NCBI GenBank assembly: GCA_026770025.1
Contig: JAMXDE010000029.1
Location: 372,001-436,000, forward strand
Reading direction: 5' to 3'
Length of the DNA stretch: 64,000 bases
DNA from: Craspedostauros australis
Lineage: Eukaryota; Bacillariophyta; Bacillariophyceae; Mastogloiales; Achnanthaceae
A program made the translations under genes and the position numbers. The notes beneath the pieces are model-generated. The model saw only the letters and a program-made list of their open reading frames with translations, had not been told where the DNA came from and searched no databases. Of the stretch, positions 44 to 4,184 are shown piece by piece (positions within the stretch are counted from its first letter, which is position 1; each line of letters begins with the position of its first letter).

Positions 44-2311
44 ATGGCTGAACCTGATGAAGGCATCGACGGGCACCACCAAGAGCAGAGCGAATTGGGA
101 AACGATGCCACGCCGCAATTGGGAATGGACGAGACTGATGAATGGGAGGATGATTCACACCAGCACGAGCACGAACAGGAACAGGAACAGGATCAGGAGC
201 ATCGTCCAGAAACATTGCCACTCTCTCACACCAACATACCGCTTCTGTGCTGCGCATTCCTTGCTTCCATCACGACGGGCGGGACGCTGTACGCATTCGG
301 CCTCTACGGCAACGAGCTGAAGAAGAAGCTGGACCTCAGCGAAGGACAGCTGGACACGATCTCCACGGCGATCTTCTGCGCTGGCCTGCTCAGCTGGGCC
401 CCTGGCCTGTTGGTGGATCGCTTCGGAACGCGATTCGGCATAAGTGTGGGCGGTGTCTTCGGTGCAGCCGCCCTCATGTGCTTCTACGCCATCTCCGCCA
501 AGGGGATGTTCATCGCCCAGGATGAAAAGCAGCTCATCGTCGCGGCGCTGTCTGCGCTGGGAGTTGCGACTTTCCTGGGATGCGCGCTTGTCACAGGTGC
601 CGTGTTCAAGATCGTCGTGCAATCCTGTGGACCTGGCACGAAGGGTGACGCTGTCGGCATCGCCAAAGGATACGTCGGCTTGGGCTCGGGCGTCTACGCA
701 TGTCTTTTCGAGGCCATCCGAAGCCCAGGCTCGTCAGATCTCGACTTCATCCCAATGGCAGCCACGCTCTTCATAGTCGTGGCGACCATTCCCAGCCTGC
801 TGTTTCTGCCGCCGCACGAGAAGCAGAGCCTGCAGAGCGGCCACGTTGCACTTGCACCATCGTCCTTCACAGCACGGAAGGATGTGGCATCGAGATTGCA
901 TCTGCGAGTTCTCTATGCGTCGCTCATCATGCTCGCCACCATCGTGCTGGGGACCTCCATCATCACGCTGTACGAGGAGAGACGGAAGGAGAATGAAGAC
1001 AAGCAGCACGGAACGCACCGGTGGAGATTGCTGGATGTGGAGGGCACGTGGAGCAACGAAGACGACCAGGAAGACACGCAAAACTTTGTCTTGGCTGGTT
1101 TCATCGTTATGGTTTGGATCCTCCCGATCGCCTCGCTTGTATTCCTGCCGCAGGCAAGGCATCGAGCGGAATCGAATAGCAACAACAGCAGCGAGGGTGA
1201 TGCCGAACAGGATGCGTTGCTGGATGAGTCTGAACAGCAACAATTGACGTGTCTGCAAGAGTCCGGAGACGCGCGCAACGCTGGAGTTACCAGCGAGAGT
1301 GCGACAAAGAGTGCAAGTCAAACTGGTGGCATGAACAGCACAATAGACTCAACATTTGAAGATGAATTCGATGCAACAACATTGCTGCAAGGAAAGGATT
1401 CCCAGAATCCACTGAATGGTGCACAACCACATCCCGATGAACTCGACATCGATGATCATCCCAGAATCGACTTCGGCAACATCAGTCATCGTGATGATGA
1501 TGACGACGACGATGCCGCTGCACAGATACGCAGAGGCACAGATAGCAACGGTCATGCGGGCAGCGGCAATGGCAACGCTAGCGACAGCAACAACGACGAC
1601 GACGGAAATGAACCAAATTCGAATCTGGTGCAAATGCTCATGACGAAGCCTGCATGGTTCATGCTGTGGACGGCTGTCATCCTCGTCGGCGCAGGCACGG
1701 TGGAGACGAACAACATGGACAAGATGGTGGAATCCGCAGGTTTTCCCAAGATCGTTGCACCATCGGCCCTCGCCATTTTCTCAGTGGCGCAATCGGCTGG
1801 ACGTGTAACAACCGGCGCGCTTTCCGAGGCTGCGCTGAACTGGGGCGTGCCGAGACCCTTCTTCATGATGGTTGCGAGCGTCGTTGCCTTGGTCGCGCAT
1901 GTCATCCTCGCGTTCGCACGGTCCGAGGTCGCCTTCGTGCTTGGCACAGCCTTGAGCGGATACGGGTTTGGCATGGTGTGGCCGTTGCTGGTCCTCATCG
2001 TGGGTGAAGTGTTCGGCAAGGCGCACGTTGCTGCCAACTACATGTTCTACGATGGCGTGACATCGGCAGCCGGAACGGTGCTGCTGTCCAAGATCGTGGC
2101 GCAGAGGGTCTACGAGGCCCACATTGACGGCGGTGATGAGCAGGACGGCGATGGTGGCGAACAAAATACATGTCACGGGCTAGAGTGCTTTGCGTTGACC
2201 CATGTCATCATTGCTGTGCTGTCGGTATCCTGTTTCGGAACAAGCTGGTTGCTGTTACGTGGAACCCGGGACACATACAGCCAACGAAGAACATCTCAAC
2301 ACACACACTGA
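44..2311 (+). CDS. Nodulin-like / NFD4-type major facilitator superfamily transporter
   Basis: A single-exon 755-residue protein. A stop codon in the same frame at 17-19 makes the ATG at 44 the first possible start. The first ~60 residues are hydrophilic and rich in His, Glu and Gln. A first membrane bundle runs from about residue 65 to 270 and contains the MFS-type loop LLVDRFGTRFGI. A long, acidic, low-complexity loop (about 375-530) separates it from a second bundle that starts near TKPAWFML (residue 534) and carries GTVETNNMDKMVESAG and GYGFGMVWPLLVLIVGEVFG. This two-bundle layout and these segments are typical of nodulin-like MFS proteins of plants, algae and oomycetes. The substrate cannot be read from sequence. 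The very long central loop is the main unusual trait. The family call is firm; the function is open. Confidence 0.85.
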   Translation: MAEPDEGIDGHHQEQSELGNDATPQLGMDETDEWEDDSHQHEHEQEQEQDQEHRPETLPLSHTNIPLLCCAFLASITTGGTLYAFGLYGNELKKKLDLSEGQLDTISTAIFCAGLLSWAPGLLVDRFGTRFGISVGGVFGAAALMCFYAISAKGMFIAQDEKQLIVAALSALGVATFLGCALVTGAVFKIVVQSCGPGTKGDAVGIAKGYVGLGSGVYACLFEAIRSPGSSDLDFIPMAATLFIVVATIPSLLFLPPHEKQSLQSGHVALAPSSFTARKDVASRLHLRVLYASLIMLATIVLGTSIITLYEERRKENEDKQHGTHRWRLLDVEGTWSNEDDQEDTQNFVLAGFIVMVWILPIASLVFLPQARHRAESNSNNSSEGDAEQDALLDESEQQQLTCLQESGDARNAGVTSESATKSASQTGGMNSTIDSTFEDEFDATTLLQGKDSQNPLNGAQPHPDELDIDDHPRIDFGNISHRDDDDDDDAAAQIRRGTDSNGHAGSGNGNASDSNNDDDGNEPNSNLVQMLMTKPAWFMLWTAVILVGAGTVETNNMDKMVESAGFPKIVAPSALAIFSVAQSAGRVTTGALSEAALNWGVPRPFFMMVASVVALVAHVILAFARSEVAFVLGTALSGYGFGMVWPLLVLIVGEVFGKAHVAANYMFYDGVTSAAGTVLLSKIVAQRVYEAHIDGGDEQDGDGGEQNTCHGLECFALTHVIIAVLSVSCFGTSWLLLRGTRDTYSQRRTSQHTH

Positions 2312-3079
2312 TGCGTTTCGAGCAATGGACGCCGACCAATGCTCCGCCGCGGGCTATCAGTAGAGTATGGTAACATGGAGTAATAGAAAGAGCACGTTAC
2401 TCAATGTGCTGTGCTCTACTCGTACAAGTACAAGCCCCGCATGTGCTCAGCATATTTTGGAGTCGAGCAGAGTAATCATGATCGTTCTTTTTTGCTAAGT
2501 TATCGATGAATGTGCTGGGAGCTGGTCGTTGTGCATTGTGTGTTATCAGCCAAGGATACTTTTGGTGATGGTCTGTGCATTGCCGTCGCAGCTCTGGATT
2601 TTGTATATGATCCCTCGCCAAGACGCAGCGAGCAATTGTATGTATAATGGATCACATCCGTTGTCATTTCATTCCATTCCGTTCCAGGACCCTCTCTCCA
2701 GAAAGTCGATGGAACATGGGATGCGCAACTTGAGCCGAACCTGCGAATGCAATGGTTTCGTCAGGTCCACCTTTGCACGCCGGCGTTACGTACGTAACGC
2801 GCGTACAAACGGAATGGACCGTCATCCCGACAGCAATGATTCGACCACCACCACCAACAGCAATCTTTGGCATGATTTTCCCACAAGCAGCTTTTCCCCA
2901 ATGTTAGTTGGACAGTCAGTCTGTCGGTTATTGTGTACGAATATGCTCAGGGCTGATCATTCGGACAGACAACGACCCAAAAGTCTTCAGCAAACGATGG
3001 TTCATGTGCACGTCGTGGTAGAAAATCCACATCACGACGCACCATTCGATGCGTCATCTTCTGCTGCGCCTACTGAGGC
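2312..3079. other. Convergent intergenic region, 3' ends of the MFS and peroxiredoxin genes
   Basis: No protein-like reading frame was recognised. It should contain the 3' untranslated regions of both flanking genes, which point towards each other. The one notable structure is the long hairpin at 2760-2825, listed separately. Confidence 0.5.
2750..2835 (-). promoter_or_regulatory. Candidate SECIS-like hairpin in the 3' UTR of the selenocysteine-type peroxiredoxin
   Basis: On the minus strand, ~254 nt after the peroxiredoxin stop, ATGAC (2825-2821) is followed by GGTCCA (2820-2815). This pairs with TGGACC (2769-2764), followed by TGAC (2763-2760). The two sides can form the tandem G.A/A.G non-Watson-Crick core that defines a SECIS element. 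Above it lies a long imperfect helix ending in an 18-nt palindrome (2783-2800). Against the call: there is no AA in the expected apical position (CC is found instead), the apical stem is longer than usual, and the lower helix looks weak. It is the only stretch with both core halves that I found in the ~400 nt after the stop. Confidence 0.3.
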
Positions 3080-4184
3080 CTACTTGGATTCTTCAATTGC
3101 CTTGAGCATGGCTTCGGCAAGTGTGTGCGACGGATCGCCGTCGCCAGCAGGATCATCCGGCCCTTCGGAGATGTGGACGGCCTTGATGGTTCCATTCACG
3201 GCGTAGACGGCGCTGCGCTTGCATCGGCCGTAGAGTCCCTTCTCCATGGGACCTGGATGGGTCATTTCCATGTCCAGGGCCTTGGTCAGGTCACCTGCTG
3301 GATCACCCATCAGTTGCACCATGCTCTGTGATGCCCCATGCCAATAATAATGGACGCATGGTGCCCACCCATGCATACCGATACATACCATTGGTCAGCA
3401 AATTACACAATGATTGAGTGGAGAAGAGCGGAAGAGTTAGTGCGACCGCATGGATGTCAATATGACGCCATGTGTTGTGGAGCATGCCACATCATATGTA
3501 TTATATAATAGTTTGAAGACGCGTGGAAATACGGCAGAGTAGAGTACATATGCACAAAGTAACGAAGATGGTTCAAGTATGAGACAAGAAGGAGCGTTGC
3601 ATGGCACACGAAGTTGGTGACCTAGATGCGCTGTCACAGGCTCGCCTGCGTATACATTTGCACATGCACATGCACTTGCACATGCATACACATGCACACG
3701 CGGCCCTACAGCCCCGCGAGAACGCCATCCGTCGCAATCTACATTCATCTCACTTGCAAAAGTATCTCCACCTTGCCATTCAAGGGGGTGATTGGGAACT
3801 CACCAGGCCAGTCTTCTGGTCCTTGGCCCATGCTTGCATGACGGCAGCGTCGTTGACGCTGTACACAATGACAGCGTCAACCCCAGCCTTGCGGAGAGCG
3901 TCTTGATTCTCCAGGTAGTTGGGGATTTGCTTTGTGGATCAGGTGGGTGTGAAGGCCCCTGGCAATCCAAGCAGCACCACCGACTTGTTCTTCGCGAAGT
4001 CGGCGAGGTTGTGCTTCTTCGGAGGGAATCCTTGGTGCAGCTCGACGGAGGGCACGGCGTCTCCCACGGAGGCGAACGAGCGGAGCGCCAGGTTGGATCC
4101 GGATTTCAGAGCGGAGGAGGCAGAGGCAGAGGTTGAGGCCCTCGCGAGCTTGCTCACGAAGGCAGCGGAAGAGCCAAACATCAT
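3080..4184 (-). CDS. Peroxiredoxin 5 / type II peroxiredoxin with an in-frame TGA (selenocysteine) at the catalytic site
   Basis: Thiol peroxidase fold that reduces hydrogen peroxide and alkyl hydroperoxides. Exon 1 is 4184-3804 and exon 2 is 3325-3080. The 478-nt intron (3803-3326) begins GTGAGT and ends CACAG, and the phase is 0. Total 208 residues counting the TGA codon. Residues 1-40 are rich in Ser, Ala and Arg with almost no acids, as in a mitochondrial presequence. The family motif reads GAFTPT, then TGA at 3941-3939 (residue 82), then STKQIPNYLENQDALRKAG. The family has the peroxidatic Cys at exactly this place. The frame then continues with VYSVNDAAVMQAWAKD, SMVQLMGDPAGDLTKAL and a normal C-terminus ending AIEESK. 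Selenocysteine insertion is the simplest reading. Alternatives are a sequencing error, a single TGC/TGT-to-TGA mutation in a dead gene, or a truncated protein ending at residue 81. No other lesion is visible, which argues against a pseudogene. Confidence 0.85.

Follow-up and report, generated by a model that had tools for sequence, protein, structure and literature searches.

A peroxiredoxin gene on the minus strand of a 64,000-nucleotide stretch of the Craspedostauros australis genome (the window) carries an in-frame TGA where its family has its catalytic cysteine, and the question is whether this codon ends a broken gene, is an error or is translated, and in the last case as which amino acid. 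An earlier note on this DNA had placed the TGA at the peroxidatic Cys, had seen family sequence on both sides of it and across an intron, and had proposed that UGA is read as selenocysteine (Sec). Both observations are borne out by the joined frame and its alignments, and the proposal gains from three paralogues, Cys-encoding relatives, Sec machinery and a shared SECIS-like element. The window gene (Table 1) very probably encodes a Prx5-like (type II) peroxiredoxin whose UGA would be decoded as Sec by eukaryotic machinery, directed by a SECIS element in the 3' UTR.

Table 1. Features of the window peroxiredoxin gene, its SECIS-like element and its two TGA-bearing paralogues.
Feature	Position	Strand	Details
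Prx5 gene, two exons	4184-3080	minus	ATG at 4184; sequence-based model
Exon 1	3804..4184	minus	presequence at about residues 1-38; N-terminal half, including PGAFTPT and the proposed Sec
Proposed Sec codon	3939..3941	minus	in-frame TGA, residue 82, peroxidatic position
Predicted spliceosomal intron	3326..3803	minus	478 nt, phase 0, GTGAGT...ACAG; from sequence alone
Exon 2	3080..3325	minus	C-terminal part; coding 3325-3083 and TAG 3082-3080
SECIS-like element	2761..2825	minus	GG followed by core ATGAC (2825-2821); helix GGTCCA/TGGACC with inner hairpin; TGA at 2763-2761 on the 3' side
L001	contig C1		Prx5 paralogue, apparently intronless, in-frame GAFTPT-TGA-S
L002	contig C16		Prx5 paralogue, apparently intronless, in-frame GAFTPT-TGA-S

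The joined frame spans 208 residues and its single internal stop is the TGA at 3941-3939. Searched alone, the exon 1 stretches before and after the TGA both match the Pfam Redoxin family (1.3e-5 and 25.4 bits before it; 5e-6 and 26.8 bits after it, the latter above the curated cut-off of 26.6), exon 2 by itself has no Pfam match at E 0.001, and the whole protein, its TGA written as X, gives a Redoxin match at 1.3e-20. Against Prx5 chains in the PDB the whole protein reaches ~3e-23, the X falling opposite the catalytic Cys in GAFTPGC; its single NCBIfam match is sub-threshold (19.2 of 211 bits). The sequence PGAFTPT-TGA follows PxxxTxxC, which we take to be the peroxidatic motif of Prx5 or type II peroxiredoxins, with U replacing C. 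TGA is an ordinary terminator elsewhere in the genome, as it would be here if the gene were a pseudogene or nonsense allele, dead or truncated at a real stop; this is very improbable, however, as frame, splice sites and family sequence all persist past the codon.

The same codon recurs in the host genome (74.8 Mb, 90 contigs), where 3 of 19 Redoxin matches (the window gene, L001 and L002) contain an internal TGA and all three read GAFTPT-TGA-S. Their proteins are pairwise 53-55% identical (103/187, 96/177 and 102/192 aligned residues). Its presence in two unlinked paralogues speaks further against a pseudogene, and TGA at one site in three loci, on three contigs and in proteins this divergent, makes a sequencing or assembly error at a TGC or TGT codon extremely improbable. 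A Cys version occurs in the same genome (L004, GAFTPGC, with an apparent plastid presequence). Among outside relatives, taken from viral and bacterial contigs as the best 80 of each of two scans, the aligned codon is TGC or TGT in 160/160. The window Prx5 thus has an in-frame TGA where its homologues have Cys, as selenoproteins do.

An open frame would also be expected if UGA were read through or reassigned, with an ordinary amino acid (Cys or Trp) inserted, and Cys is occasionally inserted at such UGA codons in other systems, as it may be here. TGA nonetheless terminates ordinary frames here. The MFS-like frame at 20-2311 on the plus strand, the one other window gene checked, ends with TGA, and in 15/32 other frames the match is followed by TGA as its first stop, introns being unresolved in these (a 33rd frame, without a stop in its locus, was left out of the count). 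The code is therefore standard, as the earlier note had held from TGA stops elsewhere in the window. The organism also has genes of the Sec machinery: one of five tRNA-Sec matches exceeds the cut-off (76.6 bits) and is called SeC(tca) by ARAGORN, and the genome contains SecS, an eEFSec domain and a selenophosphate synthetase (SPS) gene that bears its own in-frame TGA. PF08433 also matches a 460-residue frame, a match by which KTI12 and PSTK are not separable. The host plastid is diatom-like: contig C90, of which four 10-kb pieces were covered (some of it N), is a plastid contig, and its cytochrome c550 comes closest to PDB chains 8iwh, 6jlu and 6j3y, which belong to diatom photosystem II. The MFS/Nodulin-like transporter frame is convergent with the Prx5 gene, and its TGA lies ~450 nt from the SECIS-like element.

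In-frame TGA codons occupy catalytic sites in several other families, the identity of these sites in GPx, SelT, Trx/PDI-like, MsrA and SelU proteins being presumed here. They are found in two of three GPx matches, one of two Rdx matches (SelT) and a Trx/PDI-like gene (L046, C6:906548), as well as in two MsrA genes (L224 and L227) and two SelU genes (L229 and L230). Four of 43 thioredoxin matches contain TGA; three were read and one, L046, was counted. The two left out were L048, with a TGA at the match edge and no SECIS-like element, and L050 (C6:1872832), a decayed near-copy of L046 whose frame is broken and holds an additional TAG. First stops after the match are never TGA in the 12 TGA-bearing genes (0/12, against 15/32 in the other frames). 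That the counted TGAs coincide with catalytic positions in known selenoprotein families, alongside a Sec tRNA and SECIS-like elements, makes insertion of an ordinary amino acid highly unlikely and favours Sec.

The 3' region, where the earlier note had asked whether a SECIS lies, contains a predicted SECIS-like element at 2825-2761 on the minus strand, starting 257 nt past the Prx5 stop and not called by Rfam. The isolated element has a fold of -33.9 kcal/mol (z -4.16) that leaves the core unpaired; in a 115-nt fold that includes the flanks, the z value is -2.21, 4/200 shuffles do as well and part of the ATGA core is paired. Its helix I is weak, and by a generic SECIS score it is unexceptional, with 14/156 window tiles and 4/60 block shuffles doing as well. 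Rfam reports no SECIS in the window and, for SECIS_1, no match in the host genome up to E 10 (133 of 967 candidates scored); it also misses the SPS2 element, which is textbook-like (ATGAC, 9-bp helix, AACC, CGA and a 13-bp helix I). An element downstream of the window gene is a further point against a pseudogene, and L050, which is truly decayed, contains additional stops and shows no SECIS-like element over the following 1500 nt.

Several scans bore on the choice of element. A strict AA/CC scan gave a core at 2208, which was rejected for lying within the convergent MFS-like frame. A looser AA/CC scan recovered the SPS2 element and, in the window, the core at 2825; the different cores it gave for L001 and L002 were later dropped. 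A constrained-fold scan was convincing for SPS2 only and listed no Prx element, probably owing to its requirement for helix I. With a generic register score, the elements described here ranked top in all three Prx5 genes, but the window one was not separable from background, and the GPx gene L019 had no candidate.

The register of the SPS2 element (ATGA, then a single base, the helix, another single base and GA) also yields the best candidate 3' of each of the three Prx5 genes. The more specific signature, G[AG]ATGAC plus a helix in register and NGA, lies no more than 800 nt past the stop in 8/8 of the TGA genes then known. Unlike the generic score it did separate from background, although GRATGAC was first noticed in the very sequences counted in that 8/8. 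Background sequence (the window and 38 loci, both strands of each) totals 376,656 nt and yields five signature hits, which include the window element. The first five helix pairs are standard in 39/40 cells across the eight genes, compared with a mean of 22.2 when partners are exchanged (0/5000 as high), a statistic in which the 3' partner for L046 (CCCTGA, one mismatch) was chosen by eye and differs from the rule's own partner.

Because the signature was first seen in sequences already counted, the rule was frozen and then applied to 17 new loci (10 of 12 MsrA matches and 7/7 PF13911 matches), 16 of which had a terminator to start from. It hit four loci. One, L224, is a previously flagged MsrA gene with TGA at GUFW; the other three (L227, L229 and L230) had been listed by family search without a TGA and were picked up via the downstream element. 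Reading upstream from the element, TGA is found at the SelU site of L229 and L230 (RRPG-TGA-S/FLCRE), and the MsrA gene L227 has G-TGA-FW in a preceding exon. The signature is absent from the eight other MsrA loci (0/8), which have a Cys codon at the site. The other five PF13911 loci, one of them lacking a terminator, gave no hit, and neither, over 1500 nt downstream, did any of the retrieved thioredoxin-fold controls without TGA in the match (0/33: 27 thioredoxin, 5 Redoxin and 1 GPx). The element thus follows 9/9 catalytic-TGA genes found by their TGA (the initial eight and L224); the remaining three of the 12 were found through the element and are no independent count. The result is a simple rule, specific to this genome, by which further selenoprotein genes can be sought, even where the Sec codon is on an exon of its own or falls just beyond the domain model.

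The ATGA/NGA quartet closes the helix in the same register in 12/12 TGA genes, three of them found via the rule. Like eukaryotic SECIS elements, these have an ATGA core, an opposing NGA and a helix between, 3' of the stop. They differ in an extended GAATGAC core in 11/12 genes, the window core being GGATGAC, and around the apical motif, for which a candidate AA/CC lies 8-14 nt after the core in six (the window gene, SPS2, SelT, the PDI-like gene, MsrA L224 and SelU L229; CC at 10 nt in the window copy) and is not evident in the other six.

At the protein level, the decoded residue would act at the peroxidatic site. UGA would be translated as Sec by the host Sec machinery under direction of the 3' UTR SECIS, and the selenolate would attack H2O2 or organic hydroperoxides. 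The resulting selenenic acid would probably be resolved from outside, by glutathione/glutaredoxin or thioredoxin, because the window protein has just one Cys besides, in GRCKR, among its 208 residues. It lacks the C-terminal resolving Cys of atypical 2-Cys Prx5 enzymes, the position of this residue being assumed from human peroxiredoxin 5. On this reading the protein would be a 1-Sec peroxidase. Of its paralogues, L002 has one Cys, in YCVND; of the four in L001, one is in YCVND and another lies close to the C-terminus. Judged by eye, the window N-terminus has an RSFAS-like presequence that suggests a mitochondrial location, and the N-termini of L001 and L002 suggest secretory or plastid routes.

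The closest known proteins by sequence are mitochondrial or human-type peroxiredoxin 5 chains (PDB 1h4o, 4k7i and others), with which the window protein shares the PGAFTPxC/U motif. It differs from them in having TGA for Cys and no recognisable C-terminal resolving Cys, whereas L001 has a Cys in the resolving-Cys region. Sec-containing peroxiredoxins are already known from algae, and the genome-wide SECIS signature is the fresher part of these results. Two selenoperoxiredoxins are described in Thalassiosira pseudonana and others in Ostreococcus, according to the available part of PMC2375036; in that of PMC7539508, PRX is listed with the Sec proteins that are most widely distributed in algae, and a figure in that of PMC5917014 includes Prx among Aureococcus selenoproteins. 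The available part of PMC6627142 does not mention peroxiredoxin, and a literature search with the phrase 'Sec-containing peroxiredoxin' returned no paper. As in the accessible descriptions of PMC2375036 and PMC7539508, the present case is a Sec-containing peroxiredoxin in a unicellular alga; it differs in comprising three Prx5-like copies with different N-termini, a comparison with the known proteins by description only, their Prx5-like status being unstated in those portions. The window locus adds a well-supported selenoperoxiredoxin and its SECIS-like element to the algae, where large selenoproteomes are known.

Tentatively, and with somewhat less than even likelihood, this lineage may have a derived SECIS, in which the GAATGAC core became nearly invariant and the apical motif loosened, so that core and helix alone find selenoprotein genes, together with a selenoperoxiredoxin 5 in three compartments, the mitochondrial form lacking the resolving Cys.

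Judged by eye, the product of the next gene 3' of L001 (about 55-660, plus strand) resembles a thylakoid-lumen protein and carries what looks like a bipartite presequence.
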